This document shows positions 1-55,912 of a stretch of 64,000 nucleotides of DNA, piece after piece; position 1 is the first letter of the stretch, and each line of letters starts with the position of its first letter. The notes under the pieces were generated by a model. That model saw nothing but the letters and a program-made list of their open reading frames with translations, was not told the DNA's origin and did not search any database. The position numbers and the translations under genes were made by a program. Where the stretch lies: positions 24,439,115-24,503,114 of the forward strand of contig NC_034011.1 of assembly GCF_000346465.2 (NCBI RefSeq), read 5' to 3'. This stretch comes from Prunus persica (lineage: Eukaryota; Streptophyta; Magnoliopsida; Rosales; Rosaceae).

Positions 1-720
1 CCCATGGGAAAGAACAAGAAAAAAAAACCCAATTTATTACTACAAAAAACTAGATCAACCCTCAGTTTGTTAGATGGGTCCTTCCTCCTTGACCTTGAAC
101 TGTGTTGGATTTGGGAAAATATTGTTGAACTTGTCTTGGATTGGGAAAAATTGTTGAATTTGGGGAGGAAAAGAAGAGGTTGAGTGAGCTGAAAATTTTT
201 GGGGATAGGGTGGTGTGCGCAGCGAGGGAGGAGGAGCAAGTTATGTGGTGGTGGTGGGTTTGGGTTGCTTAGGTTTAATTTACCAGGGTGGTGGTTGGGG
301 TGCACCTGATTCATTCGAAGAGAGGCGGGGGGAAGAGAGAGAAATCGGGAGAAAGGATGGTAGGCGGAGGAGGTGGTTAGATAAAAGTCTTATTTACCTC
401 TAAAATATCCATCATGTGCATAACATGTGATCAATTTTGATGAAAAAACAAACACAATTGACGGAAATGACTAGTGGTGCAATGCGAGATCTAATCGAAA
501 TACCACTGTAATTATTTTGCCACCTGAAGGACGAAAAGTAAAGTTGGATCTTAGTCGGGGAGACTATTGCTGCAATTTTGTCAATAATATAATTTATGAA
601 GTTAATTAAAATATTTAATTATTCACTAAATAAATAATAATTAGAACATAATTATTAATGAAAGTATTTAAATAAGGCTAAGACATTGTTTAATTAATAA
701 AAAGAAAAATTGAAAAAAAT
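1..720. other. Intergenic, no gene recognised
   Basis: The first 400 bases are G-rich on the + strand, with GGT/GAG runs. Positions 590–720 are very AT-rich. Short open frames exist but have low-complexity composition and no recognisable domain. An imperfect direct repeat of about 26 bp (around 650–675 and 923–948) flanks the palindrome cluster at 730–862, which hints that the block 590–980 is one decayed mobile or foldback element. That reading is an inference. Confidence 0.4.
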
Positions 721-729
721 ATTTTTAGT

Positions 730-862
730 GTAAAGCCGCGCGGCTATACTTTTCTATTTAAAGAATATCGCCGGTACTCTACAAACAGAGTGTTTTTTGC
801 CGTATAGCCGGGGGGCTATACTCTAGAAATAGAATTTTAAACGTATAGCCGCACGGCTATAC
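730..862. repeat. Cluster of three TATAGCCG palindromes
   Basis: Three 20-bp near-palindromes of the form GTATAGCCGNNCGGCTATAC lie at 730–749 (one change, GTAAAG), 802–821 and 843–862 (centre CA). A degenerate half copy is near 765. They are embedded in AT-rich DNA and match the large array at 54018–54623, so this is a dispersed repeat family present twice in the window. Confidence 0.8.
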
Positions 863-1670
863 TATTTAAATAGCATAATATTGATTTCTCTTTTTAATTA
901 TTTTATTTAGTAGTTATGTTTTAATTATTAATGCTTAGTATTTAAATATTTTATTAAATAAAATAATTACCATTTATTGCTTGCTGTAGTAGTTCTTCTA
1001 AGCTTTTTATTTTATCTTTTCATATGCAGGCTTGGATTTTTTAGTTGTTGTAATCTTTCTCTAATTGTAATAGATGTCCACTAAAGTCCAAACATGCAAA
1101 ACGACAGGTTGATTTTTCTTAATATTAACTATTAGCTTCACTCCTCAAGTTACTTTACTAACTTAACAATATTAAACAAAGATAGCTATGGCTCTAAAAC
1201 CAATATTTTTTGGTGTGCAGGGTTTTACATATTTATGTGGTGGAGAAGACATTAAAATTACATGAAATGCTCTTCTAAAAGTATTTACCGACATGGGCAT
1301 AAATGGAAAATTATGTAAGAAACTAAATTATTGAGTTGCTGATAAAAATTTTGAGGTACTGATCCAAAGTGCCACGGAAAAAGCTTTTGCTGGATGAGAA
1401 CATGTTGTGCTGGAACTTTTATCTTTTTCTTTCTTTCCCTTCGGCCCCTCTCCCAATTATGTGGCTTTGCTTTTGGGGGACGTCTCTTGGTGTCCCTTAC
1501 TATTTCCAATCAAAAGGTACCAAAACTACAAGAGGTGTGAGGGAAATGAAAGCCCACACTGACGCAACGCAAGGTAAAGGCGTAAAACCTCACAATTTGG
1601 TCCCACACATGTAATTATTGATTCACTATTGAGAAATACAATTACAATTTCCTTTATGGATTCAAATACG
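863..1670. other. Intergenic, upstream of UGT copy 1
   Basis: AT-rich DNA without a supportable gene. Open frames on both strands between 1285 and 1837 overlap each other and the start of the UGT gene, and they have no domain. Confidence 0.4.
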
Positions 1671-1764
1671 ACCAGTTCTCCAAAGCTCCTTGTATATATA
1701 ATACGATTCAGAAACCACATTCGAAAACATCTTAAAGTGGAAAAAGGAAAAATCAAGAACAAAA
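1671..1764 (+). promoter_or_regulatory. Core promoter and 5'UTR of UGT copy 1
   Basis: A TATATATA box at 1693–1700 lies 65 bp before the ATG. The block from the TATA box to the ATG is nearly identical to the same block before UGT copy 2 (8936–9006). Compared with copies 2 and 3, the CCAAT-containing segment upstream of the TATA box is missing. The sequence goes almost directly from a GGATTCAAAT stretch near 1660 to the TATA region. Confidence 0.6.
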
Positions 1765-3436
1765 ATGAGCAACCCACATATAATAGCTGTTCCTTTTCCA
1801 GCACAAGGTCATGTGATTCCCTTGATGGAGCTGTCACAATGCTTAGTTAACCATGGCTTCAGAGTCACATTTGTGAATACAGACTACAATCACAAGCAAG
1901 TCGTGAATGCCTTGGCTGCTGATGAAAGTCAGTTATCGGATCGAATTTGCCTAGTTTCACTTCCAGGTGGCTTAGAGCCCTGGGAGGCCAGGCATGAGGT
2001 AGGAAAGTTATGTGAAGCAACGGAAAGAGTCATGCCTGGGAAGTTGGAGGAGCTGATAGAGAAGATCAACCAAGGGGAAGGTGACAAAGTCACTTGTGTC
2101 ATTGCTGATGAGTGTTCCGGGTGGGCTCTGGAAGTGGCAGAGAAACTGAATATCAGGCGAGTTGCCTTCTATCCTGCATCAGCTGCAATTTTGACTTTGC
2201 AATTCTCTATCCCAAAGTTAATTCATCAAGGAATCATCAACGACGATGGTAAGATCCTCTATCATGCAAATACTATGCAACACTCTTATGTAGTATTGGT
2301 TGAAGAATATGAAATCCCTCCTTGGAAACTTGACAAAATCTAATATACCATACAATGAATAGTTACCCTACTAAATACTAATAGAATTGAGGGCTTTTGT
2401 ATAAAACTCCACACATGCCGAATATCATAGTTAAGTTGGGGACAATATCGATGTTGATAGTAGTGGTGGAAATTGAACAGTATTTTAGTTCAACAAGTTC
2501 TTAAGTTCTGTTATTGTCCATTCTTTTCATAGTCATTCACTTTTGGCAGGAACTGTTTTAAGAAGCCAGATGATTCAGTTGGCACCGGGCATGCCCACCA
2601 TGAAAACTACAGAATTTCTTTGGGCATGCATGGGTGACTTGACCGCACAGAAAATAGTATTTCAAGTTATGGTAAGAAATAACAAGGCTGCGAAATTGGC
2701 AGAGTGGATTGTTTGCAACTCAGCATACGAACTTGAGCCAGCAGCATTCACAGTGGCACCAGAGATTTTACCAATAGGCCCGCTTCTGGCAAGCAGCCGG
2801 CTTGGAAACTCAGCATGCTACTTCTGGCCACAAGACTCAACTTGCTTACAGTGGCTGGATCAACAGCCACCATGCTCAGTCATCTATGTTGCATTTGGCA
2901 GCACTACATTTTTTGATCAAACACAATTCCAAGAACTGGCTCTGGCTCTTGAGCTGTCCCAAAGGTCATTCCTCTGGGTTGTGAGGCCAGATATCACTGA
3001 CAAAACATCTGATCCCTACCCAGAAGGATATCAAGACCGTGTAGCCTCTTGCGGTCTGATGGTTGGTTGGGCACCTCAACAAAAGGTTCTAGCTCATCCT
3101 TCCATTGCTTGCTTCTTAAGCCACTGTGGTTGGAACTCTACAATAGAAGGTCTAAGCAATGGAGTTCCTTTCTTGTGCTGGCCATACTGTTCTGACCAGT
3201 TCCTTAATGAGAGCTACATTTGTGATGTCTGGAAGGTTGGGTTGAAGTTGAAAAAGAATGAAAATGGGATCATACCACAAGGAGAAATCAAGAGCAAGGT
3301 GGAACAACTGCTTGGTGATGAAAACTTCAAAGCAAGAGCTTCCAAACTGAAGGAAATGGGCATGACCAGTGTCAAAGAAGGTGGCCAATCTCACAGGAAC
3401 TTTAAGAATATTATTGAATGGATGAAGACATGTTAG
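1765..3436 (+). CDS. UGT83A1-like: UDP-glycosyltransferase, UGT83A1-like (copy 1)
   Basis: Family-1 glycosyltransferase that should move a sugar from UDP-glucose to a small molecule in the cytosol; the acceptor cannot be read from sequence. Two exons, 1765–2248 and 2550–3436, with a phase-1 GT–AG intron, give 456 aa, normal for the family. The N-terminal motif PAQGHVIPL carries the catalytic His16, and the partner Asp is probably Asp115 (IADE). The 44-residue PSPG box is residues 335–378 and keeps HCGWNS, the Glu and the final DQ. Odd points: the box ends YCSDQ where the other copies have YFADQ, and it has several private changes (SACYFW, VASCGL). The last codons read KTC-stop instead of KA or KS-stop because an LTR begins at 3431 and provides the TGT and TAG. 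Transcript 3' end formation therefore probably uses LTR sequence. Family call is strong; functionality is uncertain. Confidence 0.9.
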
Positions 3437-3624
3437 CGAGATCCTAGCTTAATTAGGATATTTATTTCCTAGTTTATTAGGATTATATTTCTTTACTTTT
3501 TGTACAGATATTATGTAATTAGGTTTTTATTTTGTTTCCTAGTTTGACCCTACTAGGGTTACATCCTCGTACTATAAATACTTTCTTTTGGAGAATGAAA
3601 TATAATCTGAAAATATTCTACCCA
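3431..3624 (+). mobile_element. 5' LTR of a Ty1/copia element
   Basis: Starts TGTTAG immediately after the UGT coding segment and ends CCCA, giving the TG…CA ends of an LTR. A TATAAATA box lies at 3573–3580. It is followed at 3636–3649 by TTAGTATCAGAGCC, which resembles the tRNA-iMet primer binding site (usual core TGGTATCAGAGC). The 5 bp before it are AGACA. No matching 3' LTR or second AGACA junction is visible in the window. Confidence 0.8.
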
Positions 3625-3635
3625 TATTGTTTGAC

Positions 3636-5473
3636 TTAGTATCAGAGCCGATTTTTTGGTGACCTGTGTATTGTGCCCACCCGTGTTCTATCCCCATATT
3701 TTTTTTCTCTACCTGTGCCGTGTGCGCCCTCTTGGGTTTGTGTGTTGTGTTGTCGTGTTCGTGTCTTTACTGTGTTCATGTGTTCATGCATCTGCCGTAT
3801 TTGTGCCTTTGATGTGTTCAACTGTGTACTCTGCTGTGTTCGTGCCTATCTTTTTGCATCTGCCGTATTTGTGCCTCTGCGGTGTTCTGTTGTATACTCT
3901 GCCGTGATCTATTGAGTTTCTGCTGCAATCATAGGTGATAACTCCATTGTTGCTGCTGTTGCTGTTGCCTCTGCAAATTTGTGTGTTTCTGATTCTATTC
4001 CAGGTACTGGCTCTAATACTTGGATAATTGACACTGGTGCTTCTGATCATATGACTTATAATGCTAAATTTTTTGATGAGTTGTCTAGTAACACCCGTGA
4101 CCCATACATAACTAGTGTTAATGGCTTGCCCTCTCTAATTACTGGTGAGGGCACAATCTCTCTCACTCCTACTCTGTCCTTATCTTGTGCGTTACTAGTT
4201 CCTAATATCCATTGTAACTTGTTATCTGTTGGTCGATTACTTGATACACTTAATGCTTCTGCTACTTTCTATCGTACGCATTGCTCTTTTCAGGATCTCA
4301 AGACTCACGAGACAATTGGGCATGGTAAACGGATATGGGGTTATATTATTTGACATTGCCTTCTGCACCAGTTCGTGCTCGTGTCGTTAATACTGTTCAA
4401 AGTTGCAGTGTCAAAGACAAACAATAAATTTGGTAATGGCATCGTCGCTTGGGACACTCGTCATTTGGCTACCTTAAGCGTCTGTTTCCATCTTTATTCT
4501 ACTGTTGTGATGAGTCCAATTTTAAGTGTGAGACATGTATTTTGGCCAAGAGTCATTGCAGTGTGTTTCCTTTGAGTGACAGTAAAGCTACAAAGCCTTT
4601 TGATTTAGTGCATTCTGATGTATGGGGTCCGGCTCGCGTTACTGCGCATGGATTTCGTTGGTTCGTCACATTTATTGATGATTGTACCCGACTCACTTGG
4701 GTTTTCTTGCTAAAAATAAACATGATGTTGCTTCCATCCTTCTAGAGTTCTATACTATGGTGTCTACTCAGTTTCATGCTCGGGTCAAAGTATTCCGGAC
4801 TGATAACAGAGGCTAATATGTGAATAACACTTTGGCATCTTTCTTCCTTGCTCAAGGTATTATTCACCAAACGACAACCCCATTTACTCCTCAACAGAAT
4901 GGTGTGTCTGAACGCAAGAATCGTCAGTTACTTGAAGTTGCCAGCTCCCTTATGTTGGACATGTCTGTTCCCCATCATCTTTGGGGGCATGCTATTTTAT
5001 CTGCTGCATATTTGATTAATCGTACTCCTAACTGGGTTCTTGATTTCAAGACTCCACATGATGTGTTTGGTGACCATGTTTCCCCTGTCTCAGTCTCCAA
5101 GTTGCTCTCTAAAGTTTTTGGGTGTGTTGCCTATGTTCATGTTTACTTTCATCAACGGAGTAAACTTGATCCTTGTGCTCTGCGATGTGTTTTTATTGGT
5201 TACTCTTCTACTCAGAAATGTTATAAGTGCTATCATCCACTTACCTAGAAGGTGCATATTACTTTGGACGTGACTTTCCATGAAGAAGTGCCCTATTATG
5301 TCTCTCATTCCTCTCCAATTCAGGGGGAGAGGGGGAGCGAATTGGAGAGTCTTGGATTGGAGAATGATGTGTTTGAAGATACTGCTTTCAGGAAGGAAAC
5401 GACTTGTCGCACTGAAGCAAGTGATCGGTTGCCCATATATGAAGATGAAACTTGTGGTCCTGTGAAGAAATGA
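3636..5473 (+). mobile_element. Truncated Ty1/copia internal region (protease, integrase)
   Basis: After the primer binding site comes a low-complexity stretch (3650–3910) with repeated TCTGCCGTATTTGTGCC in place of an intact gag. Then follow a retroviral-type protease segment (WIIDTGASDHMT, 3979–4350), a GAG-pre-integrase segment (CILAKSH, about 4440–4640), an integrase core (HSDVWGPA; FIDDCTRLTW) and the integrase C-terminal part (TPQQNGVSERKN, 4820–5248). Frameshifts and stops interrupt it, for example TAA near 4815. No reverse transcriptase or RNase H is seen after about 5470. The element is dead and non-autonomous. Confidence 0.85.
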
Positions 5474-5484
5474 CTGATCGAGAC

Positions 5485-6292
5485 ACAGTGTCACTTTTTC
5501 TACAATGCCCACGCGCCGGCAGCGCGTGGGTGCCCAAAGCGATAACGCTTCGCCGGAAAATCTCAAAACCACGGCTCCAAACTCCTACCCTAGGTATAGC
5601 ACCCTATTTGGAGCCACTTTTGTTCTTGGACCTAACCCAAAAAGTGGCCGGAAATGGCCGATCACGGTGGCCGAAGTTCGGCCGATTTTCAATTTGAAAA
5701 TCGAGTTGTCTACGCTAAGAATCGATCTAATTCTACCCAACAGGCAGCTAGAGCATGAAAAGTAGGTGAGAAACCATACCTTGCTCGTCGGAATCGATGG
5801 CCGAAGAAGGGAGATCGAGCTCCTTGAATTTTGGGTTAAAATCGGTCGGATTTTTGCATTTTCCGGCGAGCACAGGTGGTTCCAGTGGCTGAGATTGGTC
5901 GGGATGGAAAGAGGAAGATGGCACGGTTCTTTTGGGACCGGTGCCACCCCGAGCGGTGGCCGGATGCGACGGCGGCCCAAAAACCGCCACTGTGAACAGT
6001 AACAGGGGGGGCTGTTCTGCGCGCAGGGAGAGAGAGAGAGAGAGAAAATCTGATTTTATAAAAAATCTCATTTCGAAATATTTACGATTGTGCCACTGGA
6101 CTTCTTTTGACCATATCTCTCTCGTTACAACTCCGATTCGAGCCCACTACGTGTCTATGAACTCGTCTCAGTACGACCTATCCAAAAATACAAGTCACTG
6201 CCTCAAACTCTCTCCGGTTAAGAATATGACCAAAATGCCCTTAAATAATTAAATAATTAAATAAGGGTTAAATTCGGAGTCGGGGTGTTACA
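5485..6292 (-). mobile_element. Gypsy-type LTR (minus orientation), probably solo or truncated
   Basis: Read on the minus strand, this GC-rich block starts at 6292 with TGTAACACCCCGACTCCG, a start common to many plant Ty3/gypsy and related LTRs. It contains a GA run at 6026–6045. Near its other end is a GC palindrome (CCCACGCGCC…CGCGTGGG, about 5507–5532). The lower boundary is not resolved and no target duplication was found. It abuts the dead copia element, so it either inserted into it or replaced its 3' half. Confidence 0.55.
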
Positions 6293-8055
6293 TAAAGCAA
6301 ACGCACCAAAAACACAAGATTTATAGAGGTTCGGTAACGTACCTACATCTTGTCGGGTGTCTACTTTCTGGCTCTACAATAAAGAGCCCTCAACCCCAAG
6401 GAGGGACACGCCCAGCTCAAATACAGCAAACCCACCCAAGCTCACCAAGAGCAAACCGCATTGTTCCTAAGCAAGAGCTCCAGCAAGCTTTCCTATTTTC
6501 ACCTCAAGCTGCTCCCAGCTAAACAAAGGCTCTCAAGCCCTCAATTGTAAAACCCTCTCATAAATACAATACAAATACAAACAGTGGACGTAGCCCAATT
6601 TCAAGGGTGAGCCACTCAAATCCTTGTCTTATATGCGTGTGATTGTGATTTTACTGTCGTATGGTATTTTTCTTGTGACGCTCGTCATTTTTTTGCTTTG
6701 AATTTCTTCCATTTTCGTTTGTTCTTGGTGCGATTTTTTTCGATCTTGGCGATGTCTTCGTATTAGAAGAGGTATGAACTGTAGGCTTTGTTTCAGTTTT
6801 AGTACAGGTAGGTAGATATGTTATCATTAGATATCAGTATGATTTTTGAAGTTAATGGAAATTATGAAATTTTCTCATCAATGCATATGCCTTTTTTGAC
6901 TTTGTTTAATTACTTGTTTTCATGATGGCTTTGCCTTTTGGTTTGTTGATTTATTACGGTCGTTCAATTTGTTTTTGTTCAAGCATAATTTGTTAGGCAT
7001 GTATCATGATTGAATTTGAGTAAAAATTTGTGAAGTATATGTATTGAAATTTATAAAATTCTCTCTATATTTTAAGTTGATTTGTTGAGCATATGTCATC
7101 ATGGATGTGCCTTTTGGAGTTCTTTGCTCATTATTGTTGTTGCAGCTTGATCAGAAACTGGTGTATGTTTGGTTGCTTTACAATTTTGTTTGTTGGTTGC
7201 TTTACAAACATGTTAGAGCATTTCCAGCAGTTTGCCCTTTGCCATGGCAAGGAGAGCCCTAGGGAAGCTACTATTCATGTGAATAATGGATGCCCTAGCC
7301 CCCCAGCAAAGTGTGTTTCCAGCAGTTGCCCTTTGTCATGGCAAATACTATTCATTTTTTTATTTTTTTCACAACTTTTTTTACTTAAACAATTAATTTG
7401 GATAATATTTTCGGATAAGATTTTTGGGTTCCTACGTGTCAGTACTATTCATATTGGATAATATTTTCGGATAAGATTTTATTTTATTAGTTGTATTGGT
7501 TGGTATTTATAGGAAAAAAAAAAGTATGAGGATTTGGTGTTAAAAGTGAAGAGTATTGATTGGTATTTATAGACACTGGCGGACCCAGAATTTTTGTAGC
7601 GGAGGTGCAATATTGACTAAGTATGAAAAATGATTTTTCGGAATAATCATTTTCTCAAGATAATTTTTGGCGGCTTTTATTCCTTACACATCAAATAAGA
7701 AAACTTGATTTTATGGGATTTTAATATGAAGTATATATTGACTTAATGAGCCATCATTTTTAGCCTAAATCGTATTTTGCACTAAAACCGATTTTTCATA
7801 TTTTGATTTGGTAGGAATTTGATTTTCTATTATTTTTATTTGAATCTAAATAGGGGGTACTTCTTTATTTACATTGTAAACTTAAGTAAATGGAGTAATA
7901 TAAAAATAAATGAAAGTAAAAGGACAAAGACATTTCTTTACCATGACAAACTTCAATTATAAGGACATTGAAATGAGTAATAATTGGCAGGCCTTTCTTT
8001 ACCATGACAAACTTCAATTATAATTGACACTTCCATAAAGAAAAAAGTTATTAAG
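6293..8055. repeat. Repeat-rich spacer with small direct repeats
   Basis: No gene is recognised. Several short direct repeats are visible: TTCCAGCAG…TTTGCCCTTTG…CATGGCAA at about 7214–7245 and again at 7318–7345; GGATAATATTTTCGGATAAG at about 7399 and 7457; ATTGGTATTTATAG at about 7490 and 7557; CTTTACCATGACAAACTTCA at about 7936 and 7995. The stretch starting GGCGGACCCAGAATTTTT near 7578 looks like a dispersed plant repeat. These suggest MITE or LTR debris, which is an inference. Confidence 0.45.
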
Positions 8056-8059
8056 TTAT

Positions 8060-8570
8060 TATCACCAGATATGCCTGGCATGAACACAGCAAACTTGGTG
8101 TGGGCATGCCTTGGCAGCAAGGCTTTGCAGAAAAATGTGTTTGAACTTATGGTTAGAACCCAATCAATGAAATAAGCGCCTTGGGCCTGCAGCATCTACC
8201 ATGGCCCCAGAGATTCTACCAGGGCCACTTTTGGAAACTTGTGGCCAGGAGACTCTTGTTTGAACTGGCTTGACCAACAACCACCACAACCCGTCACATA
8301 TGTTGCTTGAACTCTTTACTTTGCTGATCAATTTCTCAATCAAAGCTACATTTGTGATGTTTGGAAGAGTTGGTTTGGTCTTTGATCGGGATGGGAGTAG
8401 GATCATTACCCACAGAGAAATCACAAAATAAGGTGGAGCAGCTGCTAGGAAACAGTAATTTTAAAGCAAGGGCGTTGGATATCAAGAAAATGGTTATGAA
8501 TAGTATCAAAGAAGGTGGTGGCTCATACAAAACTTTCAGTAGTTTTATTGAGTGGATGAAAAGATTGGTA
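8060..8570 (+). pseudogene. UGT83A1-like pseudogene, 3' half only
   Basis: Translating around in-frame stops and shifts gives pieces of the UGT second exon in order: PDMPGMNTANLVWACLGS (8065 onward), a stop near 8170, a fragment matching the APEILPIGPLL region (about 8200–8230), DSCLNWLDQQPP (8250–8285), then a jump to FADQFLNQSYICDVWK (about 8325–8370) and KVEQLLGNSNFKARA to FIEWMK (8430–8563). The first exon, the middle of the glycosyltransferase domain and nearly all of the PSPG box are missing. It is more diverged from the four intact copies than they are from each other, so it is an older duplicate. Confidence 0.85.
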
Positions 8571-8589
8571 AGCTCTTCAAGCATTGGAT

Positions 8590-9006
8590 CAAACGTAAAT
8601 TTACTTCTTGGAAGGAGTTGGGGTCAAGCTGGTGTAAACTACAAATACAGAAACCAAAACCCCAGTTGCCATTTTAACATCTTCAATACTTCCACAAAGA
8701 ATGAAAGGTAGTTCCATCAATTATAGAACAAAGTATAAAACAATAGAGTGAAGAAACTAAAGCCATTCACTGAAGGACAAAACAACATCATAGTAAACCA
8801 AAAAAGAAATGAACTATGAAATCTAAACAAAAGAGACAAAATGGTTGATTCCCCAACTTTGGATTCAAATGAGAACAATGCCAATGAAGACAACACCTAA
8901 GTAATGGCGCGTAAACCAATGCTCCAAGCTCCTTCTATATATGATACGATTCAGAAACCACATTCGAAAACATCTTAAAGCGAAAAAGGAAAATTCAAGA
9001 ACAAAA
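8590..9006 (+). promoter_or_regulatory. Duplicated upstream region of UGT copy 2
   Basis: Contains a CCAAT box at 8916–8920 and a TATATAT box at 8936–8942, 65–70 bp before the ATG. More than 250 bp of this region, from AATACTTCCACAAAGAA at about 8685 onward, has a recognisable counterpart upstream of copy 3 (11215–11566) and copy 4 (14080–14289). The tandem duplication unit therefore carried its promoter. Confidence 0.6.
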
Positions 9007-10484
9007 ATGAGCAACACACATATAATAGCTGTTCCTTTTCCAGCACAAGGTCATGTGATTCCCTTGATGGAGCTGTCACAATGCTTAGTTAACCATGGCT
9101 TCACAGTCACATTTGTGAACACAGAGTACAATCACAAGCGAGTCGTGAATGCCTTGGCTGATGAAAGTCAGTTCACGGATCGTATTCATCTAGTTTCACT
9201 TCCAGATGGCTTAGAGCCATGGGAGGACAGGAATGAGCTAGGACAGTTATGTGAAGCAATACAAAGAGTCATGCCTGGGAAGTTAGAGGAGCTAATAGAG
9301 AAGATCAATGAAGGGAAAGGTGACAAAGTCACTTGTGTCATTGCTGATGAGAGTTCCGGGTGGGCTCTGGAAGTGGCAGAGAAACAGAATATCAGGAGAG
9401 TTGCCTTCTGGCCTGCAGCAGCTGCGCTTTTGGCTTTGCAATTTTCTATCCCGAAGTTAATTCATGAAGGAATCATTAACGACGATGGTACGATCCTTTT
9501 TCATGTGAATATTATGGAACACTATCATGTAATATTTTGTCCAACAAGTTCTTGAATTCTGTTATTGTCTTTTCTTTTCATAGTCATTCACTTCTGGCAG
9601 GAACTGTCCCAAGAAGCCAGATAATGCAGTTAGCACCAAACATGCCCACCATGAAAACTGCAGACTTTGTGTGGGCATGCATTGGTGACTTAACCACTCA
9701 GAAAATAGTATTTCAAGTTATGGTAAGAAACAACAAGACTGTGAAATTGGCAGAGTGGATTGTTTGCAACTCAGCATATGAACTTGAGCTAGCAGCATTT
9801 GCCATGGCACCGGAGATGTTACCAATAGGCCCACTTTTGGCAAGCAGCCGGCTTGGAAATTCAGCAGGCTACTTTTGGCCACAAGACTCAACTTGCTTAC
9901 AGTGGTTGGATCAACAACCAGCCTGCTCAGTCATCTATGTTGCATTTGGCAGCTTCACAGTTTTTGATCGAACCCAATTCCAAGAACTGGCTCTGGCTCT
10001 TGAGCTGTCCCAAAGGCCATTCCTCTGGGTTGTGAGGCCAGATATCACTGACAAAACATCTGATCCCTACCCAGAAGGATATCAAGACCGAGTAGCCTCT
10101 CGCGGTCTGATGGTGGGTTGGGCACCTCAACAAAAGGTTCTGGCTCATCCTTCTATTGCTTGCTTCTTAAGCCACTGTGGTTGGAACTCTACCATGGAAG
10201 GTGTAAGCAATGGGGTTCCTTTCTTGTGCTGGCCATACTTTGCTGACCAGTTCCTTAATGAGAGCTACATTTGTGATGTCTGGAAGGTGGGATTGAATTT
10301 CAACAAGAATGAAAGTGGGATCATACCACAAGGAGAAATCAACAAGAAGGTGGAACAACTTCTTGGTGATGAAAATTTCAAAGTAAGAGCTTCCAAACTG
10401 AAGGAAATGGCCATGACTAATACCAAAGAAGGCGGCCAATCTCACAGGATCTTTAAGAACTTTATTGAATGGATGAAGGCATAG
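9007..10484 (+). CDS. UGT83A1-like: UDP-glycosyltransferase, UGT83A1-like (copy 2)
   Basis: Exons 9007–9487 and 9601–10484 with a 113-bp phase-1 intron give 454 aa. The start is the ATG of MSNTHIIAVPFP, as in copy 1. Catalytic His is in PAQGHVIPL and the partner Asp in IADESSGW. The PSPG box starts at Trp334 and has all hallmark residues (WAPQ, HCGWNS, FADQ). The frame is intact with no unusual substitutions, making this the best candidate for a working enzyme in the cluster together with copy 4. The N-terminal exon is very close to copy 1, which suggests a recent duplication or gene conversion between them. Sugar donor is presumably UDP-glucose; acceptor unknown. Confidence 0.93.
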
Positions 10485-10794
10485 GCAAGTCGCCTATCCT
10501 TTTCATTCGATAGGAACAAAAGGAAAAAGGCAACACAGAAAATGTGCCAATAGATCTGGTTCAAGTATTAATAATATAAGACCAATACCTCAGCTGATGT
10601 ACTAATTCAATAATTAATAGAAAAGATAAAAGCATAGCGAAACTTTCAAGCTTTTTTTCTGTCCTTGTTGTCTCTTGTGTGCATGTGTGTGCGCTTCCCT
10701 TCTTTTTCCTGAAATAAAAATTAGGAGGAGAAGCAACACCAGACACTAAAAGGCATCATTTTCTGGTCAACCATATTACCGCTTTGAAATTCAG

Positions 10795-10826
<32 letters not shown>

Positions 10827-11460
10827 TACTGCTGTGAAATGAGACCCCAAGGTTTAAAAACATATTATTCACAGAGAATTAAACACCAAGTCTAACCTAG
10901 CACCTAGCAGGAAAGAATTATACTCAATTGCTCAAAGGCCTTAGGTTGTACATATCTTCCTAGCACCGCTCACTAACTAGGTATTCTCTCCATGTCAAGT
11001 TTAAAGATGACTGCAGCATATGATTTGTCAGATTATATATGTTTCTATTAGATTGACCATTTCAGCATCTCAACGTCATCAAACTTTTGATGCCGATGAT
11101 CACTCTCGTGGCCAATGAGATTGATAATAGCATGGTAACATCTTTGTCTATTGTTCGAAAAAGGAGTTTTTTTGAAAGGAAATGAGACCAGGTTGGTGTA
11201 AGCTGCAAAATAGAATTCAATACTTCCACAAAGAAAGAAAGCAGTTCCATCAGTGACAAAACAAGGATATAAAACAAAAGAATGATGATACTAAAGCCGT
11301 AGCATCAACAAAATTGCAACAGAATAAACTAAAATAGGCATGAACTCAATAACAAATAGATAGATATAATGAATGGCCTGTAAAGGAAAGAGACAAAATG
11401 ATTGATTCCCTTCTCTGGGTTCAAATAAGGCCAATGCCCATGAAGACAAAACCTACAGTA
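10485..11460. other. Intergenic between UGT copies 2 and 3
   Basis: No gene. An (AT)n microsatellite lies at about 10798–10828. From about 10990 the sequence is paralogous to the region upstream of UGT copy 4 (13466–14289): AGTTTAA…ATATGATwTGTCA and the CACTCTC…GGCCA segments appear in both. This marks the left part of the duplication unit. Confidence 0.5.
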
Positions 11461-11566
11461 TTGGCTATTCAACCAATGCCTCAAGCTTGTTCTATATATG
11501 GCATGATAAGGAAACTGCATTTGAAAACATCTAGAAGTGGAACAGGGAAAATCAAGAAAGAAAAAA
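11461..11566 (+). promoter_or_regulatory. Core promoter and 5'UTR of UGT copy 3
   Basis: CCAAT box at 11473–11477 and TATATAT box at 11493–11499, about 70 bp before the ATG. Layout is the same as in copy 2. Confidence 0.6.
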
Positions 11567-13270
11567 ATGAGCAAGCCGCATATTGTAGCTATTCCTTATC
11601 CTGCACAAGGGCATGTAATTCCCTTGATGGAGTTTTCACAATGCTTAGTTAATCATGGTTTCAAAGTCACATTTGTGAACACAGAGCATAATCACAAGCG
11701 AGTCGTGAATGCCTTGGCTGATGAAAGTCATATAAGTAGGAATCAGCTCCATCTAGCTTCACTTCCGGATGGCTTAGAACCCTGGGAGGACAGGAGTGAG
11801 CTAGGGCAGTTAACTGAAGCATTAAAATGGATCATGCCTGGGAAGTTGGAGGAGCTCATAGAAAATATCAACCAAGGGGAAGGTGACAAAGTCACTTGTG
11901 TCATTGCTGATGAGAATTGTGCCTGGGCCCTGGAAGTAGCAGAAAAAATGAAACTCAAGCGGGTTGCCTTTTGGCCTGCATCAGCTGCAGCGTTGACGTT
12001 GATTTTCGGTATCCCAAAGTTAATTCATGAAGAAATCATTGACAATGATGGTAAGATCCTCCATCTCTAACTTGTGAATATTATGAAACACTGTTATGCA
12101 ATATTTTAGTCCAACAGGTTCTTAATTAAGATTGATCAAACTCACTCATCAAACTACGCAATAGGATAAGCACAGAAACAATATATGAAAAAATTTCACT
12201 AACCTTAAGTAGCAATGGGACTTATGAGGACATGGTGTTCTTGAGTTCTGTTAAGTGGCATCCTTGAATCCAACATCGCTAATGCCAGAAGATTTAAATT
12301 ACTTCGTCAGCACATTGATGTGGGATTTTTTTGGGGTATCTTCATTTATTGTCCTTATCTTTTTCATAATCTTTCACTTTTGGCAGGAACTGTATTGAAA
12401 AGCAAGAATGTTGACTTGGGACCAAACATGCCCACCATGAACACTAAAGACTTTGTGTGGGCATGCATAGGTGACTTCACCACTCAGAAAATGATATTTG
12501 AGGTAATGTTAAGAATCAACAGGACTCTGAAACTGGTAGAAAGGCTTGTTTGCAACTCAACATATGACTTTGAGCCAGAAGCATTCACCTCGGCCCCTGA
12601 AATTTTACCAATAGGCCCACTCTTGGCAAGCAACCGGGTCAGAAATTCAGCAGGCTCCTTTTGGCCACAAGACTCAACTTGCTTGCAGTGGCTGGATCAA
12701 CAGCCACTCAACTCAGTCATCTATGTTGCATTTGGCAGCTTCACAGTTTTTGATCAAACCCAATTCCAAGAACTGGCTCTGGCTCTTGAGCTATCCCAAA
12801 GGCCATTCCTCTGGGTTGTAAGGCCAGATACTACTGACAAGACATGTGATCCATACCCAGAAAGATATCAAGAGCGTGTAGCCTCTCGCGGTCTGGTGGT
12901 GGGTTGGGCATCTCAGCAAAAGGTTCTAGCTCATCCTTCTATTGCTTGCTTCTTAAGCCACTGTGGTTGGAACTCTACAATAGAAGGTTTAAGCAATGGG
13001 GTTCCTTTCTTGTGCTGGCCATACTTCGCTGACCAGTTCCTTAATGAGAGCTACATTTCTGATGTTTGGAAGGTGGGGTTGAAGTTCAGTAAGAATGAAA
13101 AAGGGATCATAACTCAAGGAGAAATCAATAACAAGTTGGAGCAACTGCTTGGTGATGAAAATTTCAAAGCAAGAGCTTCCAAACTCAAGGAATTGGCCAT
13201 GACCAGTGTCAAAGAAGGGGGCCAATCCAACAAGACCTTTAAGAATTTTATTGAATGGATCAAATCGTAA
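11567..13270 (+). CDS. UGT83A1-like: UDP-glycosyltransferase, UGT83A1-like (copy 3)
   Basis: Exons 11567–12050 and 12387–13270 (336-bp intron, phase 1) give 455 aa. The start is the ATG of MSKPHIVAIPYP; an in-frame upstream extension has no counterpart in the paralogues. His16 and the IADE Asp are present. The PSPG box begins WASQQ rather than WAPQQ; the Pro in this motif is nearly invariant in plant UGTs, so donor binding could be changed. The loop SYISDVWK also differs (Cys to Ser). The 3'UTR is interrupted 49 bp after the stop by a SINE at 13320–13449. Otherwise intact. Confidence 0.92.
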
Positions 13271-13303
13271 GCAAGCAAGTGGCCTATCATTTGGTTTCGT
13301 CTA

Positions 13304-13465
13304 CTCAAAATTCAAGTTTTTTAATTTTTTTTAATTTTTTTTAATTTTTTTTAATTTTTATAATAGAAGCATTATTAGAGAAGGGGGAATCAATCCTAGA
13401 ACCTCGAGTGCAGAGGTAATTACTGCTGCTTGAGCTACAAGCCCCTTACCTCAAAATTCAAGTTT
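13304..13465 (-). mobile_element. tRNA-derived SINE with 16-bp target duplication
   Basis: On the minus strand the insert starts at 13449 with GTAAGGGGCTTGTAGCTCAA. It has an A-box-like TAGCTCAAGCAGC and a B-box-like GGATTGATTCC, and it ends in an (AATTAAAAAAAA)n-type tail (about 13320–13360). It is flanked by a perfect 16-bp direct repeat, CTCAAAATTCAAGTTT, at 13304–13319 and 13450–13465. These are the features of a Pol III SINE inserted in the 3' flank of UGT copy 3. Confidence 0.85.
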
Positions 13466-13514
13466 GAAGTTTAAGAGTGCACCATATGATATGTCAAGAT
13501 TTATATGTTTCAGC

Positions 13515-13924
13515 TGTAAGACAATAACTTGTCTTACATGATTATGGGTTTCTAATCCTATAATGATTCGGCAATTTACACTGATCTAGGAGTACAGACT
13601 TAAACATAATCTGCAGTTCTTTTTCTACGACTGTTTTAATAGGAAACAAGAACTTAAGAGAATTCCTAATTTCTTACGGATTGAAACAAACTATCCTAAT
13701 GCAAACTGGATTACTTAAGTATTTTGAATGGGCAGGAAACTTAAGTAAATGCATATAAATAGAGGTCCCTTCTCTAGCAGTTAATCAACTAATCATATAG
13801 AAATCTCACCCCATAAGAGAAAGAGCTTAAGGACTGCATAGAAGAAGAAGATCTGTATCTTACCTATAGAAGCCGTGTCTGATCAAGATTAGTATTATTG
13901 AATAAAGACATGAAATAACTTACA
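13515..13924. mobile_element. Solo LTR, 410 bp, with 5-bp target duplication
   Basis: Begins TGTAAG and ends CTTACA, a perfect 6-bp terminal inverted match, and is flanked on both sides by TCAGC (13510–13514 and 13925–13929). It contains a TATAAATAGAGG box at about 13757. No internal retroelement coding lies next to it, so it is a solo LTR left by recombination. The paralogous spot upstream of UGT copy 3 (about 11030–11060) lacks it, so it inserted after the UGT duplication. Confidence 0.85.
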
Positions 13925-13929
13925 TCAGC

Positions 13930-14289
13930 TATATTCAATGTACAATAATGTATGACAATTTCACAATTTCAATGTCAATGTCAATCACACATGTTGACAC
14001 CTCTAATCACTCTCATTGGCCATTTGATTCAAGTGACCCTAGCATGAAAAGAGCACCTTTGTCCATTGCGTATTTAACATCTTTAATACTTCCACAAAGA
14101 ACGACAAAGAAATTACGCATTCACCAAAGCATCAAGAAAACAACGATATAATAAACCAAATTAATGACTTAAAAATAAGACCAATACCAATGAAGTCAAC
14201 ACCAACAGTAATGGCTCCTCATAATTAAAAAGACCTGATTAAGATGAGAAAACATCTGAAAGTGGGAAAACGAAAAATAAAGAAAAAGA
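13930..14289 (+). promoter_or_regulatory. Upstream region of UGT copy 4, CCAAT/TATA module lost
   Basis: The block AATACCAATGAAGTCAACACC to AACATCTGAAAG is clearly paralogous to the copy 2 and copy 3 promoters. However, the segment of about 35–45 bp that holds the CCAAT and TATATAT boxes in them is replaced by CTCCTCATAATTAAAAAGACC (14212 onward). The start site here must use other signals, or expression may be low. Confidence 0.5.
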
Positions 14290-15854
14290 ATGAGCAAACA
14301 ACATATTTTAGCTATTCCTTATCCAGCACAAGGTCATGTAATTCCCTTGATGGAGTTGTCACAGTGTTTAGCTACTCATGGCTTCAAAGTCACATTTGTG
14401 AACACAGAGCACAATCATAAGCGAGTCATGAATGCTTTGGCTGATGAAAGTCATATAAGCAGGGATCATATTCATCTAGTTTCGATTCCAGACGGCTTAG
14501 AACCGTTGGAGGACAGGAATGAGCTAGGGCGGTTATCGGAAGCAATGCAACGAGTCATGCCTGGGAAGTTGGAGGAGCTGATAGAGAAGATTAACCAAGG
14601 GGAAGGCCAAAAAATCACTTGTGTCATTGCTGATCAGACTGCAGGGTGGATTCTTGAAGTAGCAGAGAAAATGAAAATCAGGAGGGTTGCCTTTTATCCT
14701 GCTGCAGCTGCACTCTTGGCGTTGAAACTTAGTATTCCAAAGTTAATTCATGAAGGAATCATTAACAATGATGGTGAGATCCACTTACCCCTAACTTGTC
14801 AATTACATAATATTTTAGTCCAACTAGTTCTTCGTCAAGATTGTTCAAGCTCACTCATCTCATCTGAAATGTAAAATTTTGATCCAATGACTATTTGGAA
14901 ATTTGAACAAGTTCAATTCTGGAGTTCTGTTTTTATCTGTTATCATTTCACAACGGTTCACTTGTGGCAGGAACTGCCCCAAAAGGCCGTATGTTTCAGT
15001 TGGCACCAAACATGCCCATCATGAAAACTGAACACTTGTTGTGGTCATGTATTGGCGACTTAACCACTCAGAAAATTATATTTCAAACTATGGTAAGAAG
15101 CAACAAGACTACGCTAGCCGCAGACTGGCTTCTTTGCAACTCGGCATACGATCTAGAACCAGCAGCATTCACCTTGGCACCTGAGATTTTACCAATTGGC
15201 CCACTCTTGGCAAGCAACAGGCTTGGGAATTCAGCAGGCTACTTCTGGCCACAAGACTTAACTTGCTTAAATTGGCTGGATCAACAGCCACCCTGCTCAG
15301 TCATCTATGTTGCATTTGGCAGCTTCACAGTTCTTGATCAAACACAATTCCAAGAATTGGCTTTGGCTCTTGAGCTGTCCCAAAGGCCATTCCTCTGGGT
15401 TGTGAGGCCAGACACTATTGAAAAAACACGTAATCTCTACCCCGAAGGATATCAAGATCGAGTAGCGTCTCGTGGTTTGATGGTGGGTTGGGCACCTCAA
15501 CAAAAGGCTCTAGCTCATCCTTCCATTGCTTGCTTCTTAAGCCACTGTGGTTGGAACTCTACAATAGAAGGTATAAGCAGTGGGGTTCCTTTCCTGTGCT
15601 GGCCATACTTTGCTGACCAGCTCTTTAATGAGAGCTACATTTGTGATGTTTGGAATGTGGGGTTGAAGTTCAACAAGAATGAAAGTGGGATCATTACACA
15701 AGGAGAAATCATGAACAAATTGGACCAACTGCTTGGTGATGTAGGTTTCAAAGCAAGAGCTTCCAAACTCAAGGAATTGGCCATGACCAGTGTCAAAGAA
15801 GGTGGCCAATCCAACAAGAACTTTAAGAATTTTATTGAATGGATGAAGTCATAG
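14290..15854 (+). CDS. UGT83A1-like: UDP-glycosyltransferase, UGT83A1-like (copy 4)
   Basis: Exons 14290–14773 and 14971–15854 (197-bp phase-1 intron) give 455 aa. Start MSKQHILAIPYP; catalytic His16 in PAQGHVIPL; partner Asp in IADQTAGW. The PSPG box starts at Trp335 with WAPQQKALAHPS and ends FADQ, complete. The acceptor-side N-terminal half differs more from the other copies (ADQTAGWIL; LALKLSIP), which may mean a different acceptor. The coding frame is intact, but the usual CCAAT/TATA module upstream is missing. Last gene of the array. Confidence 0.92.
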
Positions 15855-16300
15855 GCAAGTGGCCTATTGACTAATCTGTTTCAAGAATGTAAGGCCAATG
15901 TGTCAGTTGATACAGTGATGCAATATACTATTTGTATCAAATTGTTACTCGACTAGTTGGAAGAATCGTAGAACTATTAGATATTCGAATACAACGTATT
16001 TAAAATGACTAAATACAATGTAACAAATTGAAATTATTATGTACGGACCGAACCTGCAGTCTGCAGATGACGTACTTTATTGGAGTTATTCGAAAGAAGA
16101 GAAAGCAATGTTTTTTCCTCCGGCTCCAAGAGTATGGGCAAATGCTAGGTGATGAAGATGTGACATGCATTTTGCTTGTAGGCTTGTCGATTGTAGCCAG
16201 TCAAGGTTGCTTTTTGAAATGAAAGAAAAGGACTCAAATTCAGATGGGGACATTTATTTCTGTGAAACACTTTGTTATCTCAAATCAAAACTCAAAACTC
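15855..16300. other. Intergenic, no gene recognised
   Basis: AT-rich DNA downstream of the UGT array. Two open frames of about 63 codons here have no domain. Confidence 0.4.
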
Positions 16301-54017: not shown

Positions 54018-54623
54018 GTATAGCTGCGTGTCTATACTTTTTTGACATGTGGATCTCATTTTTTTAAATACTAAATTGTATAGCCGTGCAGCTATACACG
54101 GATATTTTTCAAAATAGTATTGCCGCAAGGCTATACTCTGATTTTTTTAAAAAATAGTATAGACGCGTGTCTTCACAACGGTATTTTGTTATTTAAAAAA
54201 TAATATAGCCCAGCAGCTATCCTACGGCATTTCTTTTTTAAAAAATAGTATAGCCGCGCGGCCATACTTATTTCGACATGTGAGGGTTCTCTTCTTTTTT
54301 TTTTAATAAGTAGTATAGCCACTAGGCTCTACTCAATTTTTCAATTTTTTTATTTTTTATTTAAAATAGTATAGCCGGCTATACTTATGCGTGGCCACTA
54401 AATAGTATAGCCGTGCGGCTATACTAAGTTTTTAATAAAAAAATTCGTATAGCCGAACGGCTATACCCGGTTTTAATAATGTTTCTTAAAAATAGTATAG
54501 CCGCGCGGCTATACGTATTTTGACACGTGGCCTCCTATTTTCTAGGATGTAAAATAGTATAGCCGCTCGGCTATACTCGGTTTTGACCCTATTTTCAAAA
54601 ATAGTATAGCCGCCCGGCCATAC
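54018..54623. repeat. Array of 13 TATAGCCG palindromes
   Basis: Thirteen copies of GTATAGCCGNNCGGCTATAC start at 54018, 54078, 54117, 54157, 54203, 54248, 54313, 54369 (short, 16 bp), 54405, 54447, 54495, 54557 and 54604. The spacing is irregular, 36–65 bp, and spacers are T- or A-rich. The right-hand copies have near-perfect 9-bp arms while the central two bases vary (GC, TG, AA, CT, CC). The left copies are more decayed. A TTTTGACAYGTGG-like spacer box follows copies 1, 6 and 11, hinting at a higher-order unit of five palindromes (230–247 bp). It ends within about 10 bp of the BRR2-derived sequence. Function unknown. Confidence 0.9.
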
Positions 54624-54627
54624 TCCA

Positions 54628-55912
54628 TATTTCGCCGAAGCAAAAGTCGCCGCCTTTGTGAAGAGAGCGTGCTCTCTGTTTCCACGGAGGAAGAAGGTGT
54701 TTACTGGCCCACGACCATGGAAACAAGGGAGGCCTATGAGGAATTTCTTAGAGTAATTCAGCAGCTGTTGGGTGGTCAGCCTCTGAGTATGGTCGGCGCT
54801 GCGGAGGAGATTCTGGCTATTATTAAATACGAGAGCTTTAAGGACCCTGAGAAGAAAAAGGAGATGCAGAAGTTGTGGAACCCGATACCAGACTGGGTTT
54901 TTTATCAGTTGGTTTCGATTGGGAGGCAGATCATGGATTATCAAGTTGGGGATGATTCGGTGGCTAACTGTGATGACGTGGGTGTTGTGGTTGGGATTGA
55001 AGAGGATGAGGAGGAGGAGAGTAGTGATCTTTATATGGTCATGGGAGATGAGGAACAGGATGAGCATGATTTGCTCAAACCAAACGAGTCTGGGCCAATG
55101 CAAATGCAAATTGGTGGTGACATTGATGATGCCTATAATGAGGGTATGAGCCTTAATGTTCAGGATATTGATGCTTATTGGCTTCAGAAGAGGATCTCTG
55201 AGGCTTATGAGAAAAAGATTGATCCACAACAATGCCAGAAGCTTTCTGAAGAGGTGCTCAAGATACTTGCTGAAGGTGATGACAGGGGAGTTGAAAAAGA
55301 TTGATCCACAACAATGCCAGAAGCGTCCCGTACCCCTGGAAATACACATACAGAGGGTGGAGAATGCTGATTTTGAAGCGAGGATGCAAGCAATGATGAA
55401 ACCAGCATACACTGCCATTGTCCAACATACCAAGAATGCCAAACCAGCTCTTGTGTATGTTCCTACAAAGAAACATATCCGACTAACTGCTGAGAATCTG
55501 GTGACTTACTCATATGCAGACAGTGGTGAGAAACCACCATTTTTATTTCGGCCTTTGGATGTTCATATCGAGTCTTTGATTGGAAGACTTAATGATGAGA
55601 TATTGCAATCCACTTTGCGTGGTGGAGTGGGATACTTGCATGAGGGCTTAACCCTTTCAGATCAACAAATTGTGTCGTGGCTTTTCGAAGATGGGTGGAT
55701 TCAAGTTTGTGTAGTAAGCAGTTCAATGTGTTGGCGAGTGTTATTGTTTGCCCATTTGGTGGTTGTGATGGGAACCCAATATTATGATAGCCGGGAAAAT
55801 GTTCATACAGATTACCATGTTACTGAACTGTTGCAGATGATGGGCCATGCCAATCGCCCTCTGCTAGACGATTCAGGAAAGTGTGTCATCCTCTGCCATG
55901 CTCCGCGCAGAG
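54628..55912 (+). pseudogene. BRR2 (U5 snRNP 200-kDa helicase) pseudogene, internally deleted
   Basis: No intron is seen. The first part (54636–55300) reads RRLCEESVLSV…EETREAYEEF-like N-terminal BRR2 sequence, through an acidic region to NVQDIDAYWLQKRISEAYE and KILAEGDDRGVE. After a 32-bp direct repeat (55211–55242 and 55293–55324, encoding KKIDPQQCQK) the frame shifts. The text then resumes far downstream in the protein, in the second helicase cassette: NADFEARMQAM, LVYVPTKKH, GVGYLHEGL, LVVVMGTQYYD, MMGHANRPLLD, CVILCHAP. Both RecA catalytic cores, and probably over a thousand codons, are missing. Homology ends near 55912. It cannot make a helicase. Confidence 0.88.

Follow-up and report, generated by a model that had tools for sequence, protein, structure and literature searches.

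Foldback elements are long inverted repeats that are built of, or enclose, short repeats. The variable-loop palindromic elements of organelle genomes (e.g., in Volvox) occur in many copies, with conserved stems and changing loops. A review (PMC13359793) reports that the MITEs of Prunus are enriched in transcription-factor sites and names sites for bZIP60 and PIF3.

We analysed 64,000 nucleotides of Prunus persica DNA (NC_034011.1, positions 24,439,115 to 24,503,114; hereafter the window), which hold an array of short palindromes. We found no description of such a palindrome-array repeat in the Prunus and Rosaceae repeat literature, judged mostly by search listings. The string "palindrom" is absent from the available parts of PMC7004133 and PMC9028240 and occurs only within the name of CRISPR in those of PMC6450939 and PMC9653787; the available part of the review PMC13359793 uses neither "palindrom" nor "tandem". 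Six 14-base forms of the motif had no match in the literature searched, and the matches listed for four 8-base pieces of it included no title on a plant repeat.

Results

The palindrome array in the window

We use PAL for a 20-bp palindrome of 9+2+9 design, that is, two 9-bp arms and a central dinucleotide. A sequence-only reading of the window had described 13 such palindromes at 54018–54623. We found all of them, one (copy 8) with its centre deleted (Table 1). The start-to-start distances agree with the spacing of 36–65 bp given there, and the spacers are indeed A/T-rich, at 78% A+T. A search of the window at up to three mismatches returned 10 of the 13 listed copies plus three unlisted ones in a second, short array, whereas 100 shuffled versions of the window yielded none. 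Three of the 13 copies have at least four mismatches or a deleted centre.

Some details needed correction. Among the right-hand centres, TG, AA, CT, and CC had been read correctly, but the third, given as GC, is CG. A box does recur after copies 1, 6, and 11 (at 54044, 54275, and 54522) in the form GACAYGTG; the longer form GACAYGTGG fits two of the three, but not the second, which reads GACATGTGA. These boxes had been taken to point to a five-palindrome higher-order unit. We rejected this unit for the window. The three boxes exist, but spacers five apart were no more alike than by chance, their lag-5 similarity being reached in 557 of 2000 shuffles.

Table 1. Palindromes, boxes, and neighbouring features in the window.
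Feature	Position	Strand	Remark
PAL copy 1	54018..54037	+	3 arm mismatches
G-box-like box GACATGTG after copy 1	54044..54051	+	
PAL copy 2	54078..54097	+	centre TG
PAL copy 3	54117..54136	+	centre CA
PAL copy 4, degenerate	54157..54176	+	5 mismatches
PAL copy 5, degenerate	54203..54222	+	4 mismatches
PAL copy 6	54248..54267	+	centre CG
G-box-like box GACATGTG after copy 6	54275..54282	+	
PAL copy 7	54313..54332	+	3 mismatches
PAL copy 8, minus four central bases (GTATAGCCGGCTATAC)	54369..54384	+	
PAL copy 9	54405..54424	+	arms perfect, centre TG
PAL copy 10	54447..54466	+	arms perfect, centre AA
PAL copy 11	54495..54514	+	arms perfect, centre CG
G-box GACACGTGGC, 22 bp from copy 11 centre	54522..54531	+	
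PAL copy 12	54557..54576	+	arms perfect, centre CT
PAL copy 13	54604..54623	+	centre CC, one arm change
Left AT-rich inverted-repeat arm, second short array	602..672	+	
Second array: three PALs (730, 802, 843)	730..862	+	
Right AT-rich inverted-repeat arm, second array	893..957	-	76% match to 602-672
5'-truncated BRR2-like copy	54630..55301	+	74% identity to fuller copy L048 on C6

Abundance and spread

The sequence-only reading had suggested searching the host genome for the motif and counting its loci. We searched 227.5 Mb in 192 contigs; the repeat counts are lower bounds. At up to three mismatches there are at least 13,377 PAL copies, dispersed over the genome, versus 19 for a reversed control, and at least 4,142 exact PALs with perfect arms versus 0. 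The exact copies with a TA centre (n = 43) lie on all eight large contigs and on two small ones. PALs are thus not confined to a few large blocks, as a satellite would be; they do repeat head to tail in the manner of satellites and minisatellites, both in the window array and in the units of locus L050. The window array is one copy of a high-copy, apparently non-autonomous, dispersed palindrome-array repeat.

Statistics were taken from the window and 38 further loci (L009–L046), 315.5 kb together. The sample is not random, because all 38 loci come from contig C1 and were picked for holding exact copies. It contains 410 PALs at up to four mismatches (reversed control, 0); at up to five, it contains 77 arrays of 1 to 23 PALs each. 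All 16 central dinucleotides are present among the sampled PALs.

Carriers of the arrays

An inverted-repeat screen entered 77 arrays, left out those with less than 100 bp of flank, and kept the best three matches of each. Most of the screened arrays had no clear inverted arms. Long AT-rich inverted repeats enclose the arrays of L030 (326 bp, 75%), L034 (82 bp, 91%), and the second array of the window at 602–957 (71 bp, 76%). One inverted-repeat arm was seen at L051, and it is the same arm as in L030; three ends of this arm agree to within about a base. L030 has 6 PALs, and L051 has at least 12 at up to three mismatches on the inner side of its single visible arm. Other inverted matches in the screen were short or AT-rich (e.g., 78 bp, 77% at L013). 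Terminal inverted repeats like those of MITEs therefore characterise a few copies and not the family at large.

The second carrier is a separate AT-rich repeat body that lies beside the PALs in L009, L010, L033, L039, and others. The L030 arm gave 57 matches from 40 scored of 466 first-look candidates, and the separate body gave 43 from 40 scored of 1,038. A single palindrome is common to at least two different dispersed carriers. Of the proposals of the sequence-only reading, which had included copying by a foldback element, copying is supported by the dispersed copies, the arrays inside inverted repeats at three sites, the agreeing arm ends, and the two carriers.

Inspection by eye revealed no Helitron ends and no target-site duplication at L030; L034 has a possible 9-mer, AATATTTAA, which is ambiguous in AT-rich sequence. 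No transposase was found in the 10 reading frames scanned, the loci with their surroundings having 205 listed frames and the window 37. Seven of the 10 belong to ordinary plant families (BRR2-type helicase PWI domain, UDP-glucosyltransferase, F-box/LRR, PPR, HSP70, ubiquitin hydrolase, and TBP-binding) and three had no match, which argues against the nearby genes as carriers.

The arrays themselves vary in organisation. Four copies of one duplicated site have 3, 3, 2, and 1 PALs. PALs form short higher-order units in L038, L039, L045, and L042. At L038:964-2000 and L039:1442-3446, the unit of ~153 bp comprises two PALs, a G-box, TGGGCTT/GGGCC boxes, and a TATATATAATA run, and the centre is mostly kept in one PAL and variable in the other. 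PALs also occur in tandem satellites such as L050, with variants at regular steps among the places listed on C1, C2, C3, and C4. At L050 (C1:42918000-42927999), the repeated blocks mostly hold four PALs with G-boxes; pairs of its 314–315-bp unit match at 97% and usually have four PALs each. The places listed for this satellite run from C1:42910276 to 42939758, at least ~30 kb.

Neighbouring genes and local duplications

The similarity of the BRR2-like copy (Table 1) to its C6 counterpart begins ~10 bp or less past the last PAL. The C6 copy has no PAL at up to five mismatches in 3.7 kb, and the window has none at up to four mismatches beyond 54623. We rejected a captured-gene element with arrays at both ends, since only one side of the BRR2-like copy carries an array. 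Elsewhere in the window, four tandem copies of a gene block occupy 1671–15867; they are about 86–91% alike over a stretch of ~0.9 kb, and the copy scanned has a UDP-glucosyltransferase domain.

PAL arrays may favour local duplication. At L012, a duplicated exon stretch stops ~20 bp before the array. The array at L037:672-1567 lies between the copies of a 240-bp direct duplication; by eye, both joints carry sequence resembling half a palindrome. Across 20 loci, 42 of 136 duplication ends fall within 150 bp of a PAL, in sequence that makes up 11.1% of the total; seven of the 20 loci contributed these ends. The enrichment fits fragility, but it may also reflect nothing more than dispersed repeats that adjoin PALs.

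Association with G-boxes

The G-box is a type of site bound by bZIP60/PIF3-like factors. The form GACACGTGGC occurs 3,315 times in the genome on both strands, versus 61 for its reversed control (~50-fold). Among the 100 places listed, some of these sites stand in runs at ~92-bp spacing and others beside PALs. In the sample, 66 of the 80 GACACGTG sites lie within 100 bp of a PAL centre, and 12 of these 66, from eight loci, are at +21 or +22 from it. Other sites cluster near +50 to +56 and at −51; those at −51 come largely from L038, L039, L042, and L045. A half-PAL followed by GACACGTGG within 5–30 bp was found 647 times genome-wide versus 0 in the control. PAL arrays with G-boxes, which are often near genes in the sampled loci, could alter gene regulation in the fruit-tree lineage. 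The multiplication of G-boxes has a precedent in the MITE-borne transcription-factor sites of Prunus, as given in the available part of PMC13359793.

Rate of change at the centre

The sequence-only reading had treated the PAL centre as free to vary. We compared duplicated PALs, masking them before alignment so that homology was set by the flanks alone, and using each PAL once. At a local flank identity of at least 80%, this gave 38 PAL pairs from 14 locus pairs. The differences amounted to 319/3905 in the flank (8.2%), 58/684 in the arms (8.5%), and 24/76 in the centre (31.6%), with a peak at positions 10–11. The ratio of centre to flank is ~4 (bootstrap range over the 14 locus pairs, 2.2–5.9). 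Centre and arms differ (Fisher test, p = 1e-7), whereas arms and flank do not (p = 0.76). Because partners were selected for similar flanks, the flank rate is biased downwards; the arm rate is free of this choice, yet it matches the flank rate. A centre that changes faster than its flank, rather than one merely free to vary, is a new point.

The result was similar without L038/L039 (flank 9.2%, arms 9.0%, centre 38.1%) and in 177 overlapping masked pairs at an identity of at least 85% (8.8%, 9.0%, and 34.5%). By band of flank identity, centre changes numbered 6/24 (≥95%), 11/32 (90–95%), 6/14 (85–90%), and 1/6 (80–85%); in this lowest band, which has three pairs, the flank rate was 0.182. The hot spot is not uniform. 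CA is almost always kept at one PAL position of the two in L038/L039, the tandem copies of L027 changed at 0 of 4 centre bases, and an earlier comparison without masking showed 0 of 8 changed in its two alignments above 90% identity. In the L050 satellite (16 units), pi was 0.147 in the centre, 0.024 in the arms, and 0.072 in the spacer; a column test of centre diversity was not significant there (p = 0.28). Taken together, in the sampled pairs the arms decay at the flank rate and the central dinucleotide changes about four times faster, unevenly among sites.

Centre changes comprised 15 transversions and 9 transitions, versus 21 and 37 in the arms. Since 15 of the 24 centre changes are transversions and all 16 dinucleotides occur, CpG decay is ruled against as the main cause of the variable centres. 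Deletions that span the centre left 12 half-arm pairs with gaps of 2–4, versus 309 intact. We rejected an excess of indels at the tip because, in a strict scan, single indels were about as frequent in the arms.

Predicted folding and paired arm changes

We folded five strands in silico. Two intact 20-mers gave −5.4 and −6.8 kcal/mol, two flanked copies from the window −6.2 and −8.8 kcal/mol, and the copy that lacks its centre −1.4 kcal/mol. An 8-bp stem with a four-base loop is predicted for the four intact strands. The predicted stability of the window array exceeds that of 20 shuffles by 16 sd.

Selection on the stem, another proposal of the sequence-only reading, was not supported by compensation, as mirror doubles in the sample were at chance: among the copies with two changes (n = 83), four had them at mirror positions versus 5.5 expected, and three of these four were complementary. 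Genome-wide, T4C (599) and A17G (552) against 4,142 intact copies predict 80 doubles, and 93 were found in this uncontrolled count; part of the 4/17 doubles listed are runs of local satellite copies. C8T (103) and G13A (107) predict 2.7 doubles, and six were found, again uncontrolled. Mixed copy ages may be the source of these small genome-wide excesses.

Discussion

The palindrome-array repeat is real, abundant, dispersed, and MITE-like in part, and it has an unusual fast-changing tip. Because the centre changes faster than the flank, a local mutational cause is needed. Because the arms decay like the flank, no current constraint is visible on resident PALs, and neither a binding-site function nor a stem function in place is necessary to explain the arms. 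The best explanation, to which we give slightly better than an even chance, is a dispersed palindrome-array repeat whose hairpin or cruciform tips mutate faster. PALs would fold as hairpins or small cruciforms with an 8-bp stem and a GNNC loop amid A+T-rich sequence. Such surroundings ease cruciform extrusion. Against this reading, eight-bp stems are short for cruciforms. The exposed tip would be damaged, cut, or miscopied, so that the central dinucleotide changes faster, and its instability would also help arrays grow, shrink, and duplicate locally. The initial spread was probably that of MITE-like DNA elements mobilised by some enzyme, and copying from active ancestors would account for the constancy of the motif.

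The strongest rival, unlikely on balance but a serious one, is that the PAL is a site for a protein dimer (a host factor, or else a transposase or accessory protein of the element), which recognises the arms and leaves the centre unread. One arm sequence is kept across differing carriers and spacers, the box GACACGTG, itself like a protein site, stands at preferred distances and orientation from PALs, and half-PALs are joined to GACACGTGG far beyond the control, all of which would suit a bound motif. But resident arms change as fast as their flank, and for a centre that is not read one would expect the flank rate rather than a fourfold faster one. The dimer site that the sequence-only reading had suggested could hold for the ancestral motif, but no present constraint is visible. 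It could explain the origin of the motif, not the rate of the tip, and both readings may be true together.

We consider it improbable that this is an ordinary minisatellite-bearing transposon family in which PALs that do not correspond were aligned with each other, producing the centre excess as an artefact. Many spacers are low-complexity A/T runs, within which non-corresponding PALs could pair, and misalignment does occur: the second L018/L019 pair was matched to different PALs in two alignments. Against this, the main comparison masked the PALs and used each only once, and L027/L028, where each aligned segment has one PAL and the 759 flank bases match at 90%, differs at both centre bases. 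The other long pairs are mixed (L018/L019, 3/4 or 2/4 by alignment; L038/L039 with 578 bases, 1/2; L027/L027, 0/4).

Less probable still is that centres differ by the exchange of short patches between PALs, through gene conversion or template switching, and not by point mutation. The arms, identical across 4,142 copies, would make ideal donors, and local duplications are common near arrays. However, 70 of the 96 differing centre pairs (73%; the pairs overlap) are one base apart versus 40% expected at random, and the spacers, which would not have been exchanged along with the centres, would limit the patches to very short ones. Selection on the stem as a cruciform or an RNA hairpin we regard as very improbable: the strong predicted folding of the window array and the slight genome-wide excess of compensated doubles would fit, but mirror doubles in the sample were at chance, many of the 4/17 doubles lie in local satellites, mixed ages alone would give a small excess, and the window has no Rfam match at gathering score.

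We propose, as a speculation more likely wrong than right, that PALs are a self-propagating fragile repeat. They would extrude in living plant cells, where nicking or miscopying of the tips makes the central dinucleotide a hypermutable tag, and repair of the breaks would make arrays grow, cause local tandem duplication, and join gene fragments to arrays. If the fragile-repeat proposal were true, the genome would hold thousands of natural recorders of cruciform formation. Cruciform formation by short palindromes in cells, and its mutational cost, are hard to observe; the thousands of PALs with perfect arms and a fast tip would make them measurable across related genomes, trees, and tissues.

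How does the repeat compare with known systems? It shares with the variable-loop palindromes of organelles conserved stems, changing loops, and multiple copies, but PALs are nuclear, stand in ordered arrays, and show no clear paired arm changes. Like the MITE-borne transcription-factor sites of Prunus, the G-box has been multiplied genome-wide, here together with PALs; the available part of PMC13359793 mentions neither the palindrome nor how far it stands from the G-box. Like foldback elements, the repeat can have long inverted arms that enclose short tandem repeats, but most of the PAL arrays screened are without clear arms, and the PAL tandem units are themselves palindromic and located between the arms. 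The likeness to MITEs lies in a short, apparently non-coding repeat that is dispersed near genes, in some cases with long AT-rich inverted repeats, and in one carrier arm with agreeing ends. It differs from MITEs in that a target-site duplication is not established, one palindrome is common to at least two carriers, and the interior of the repeat is a variable array of a 20-bp palindrome.
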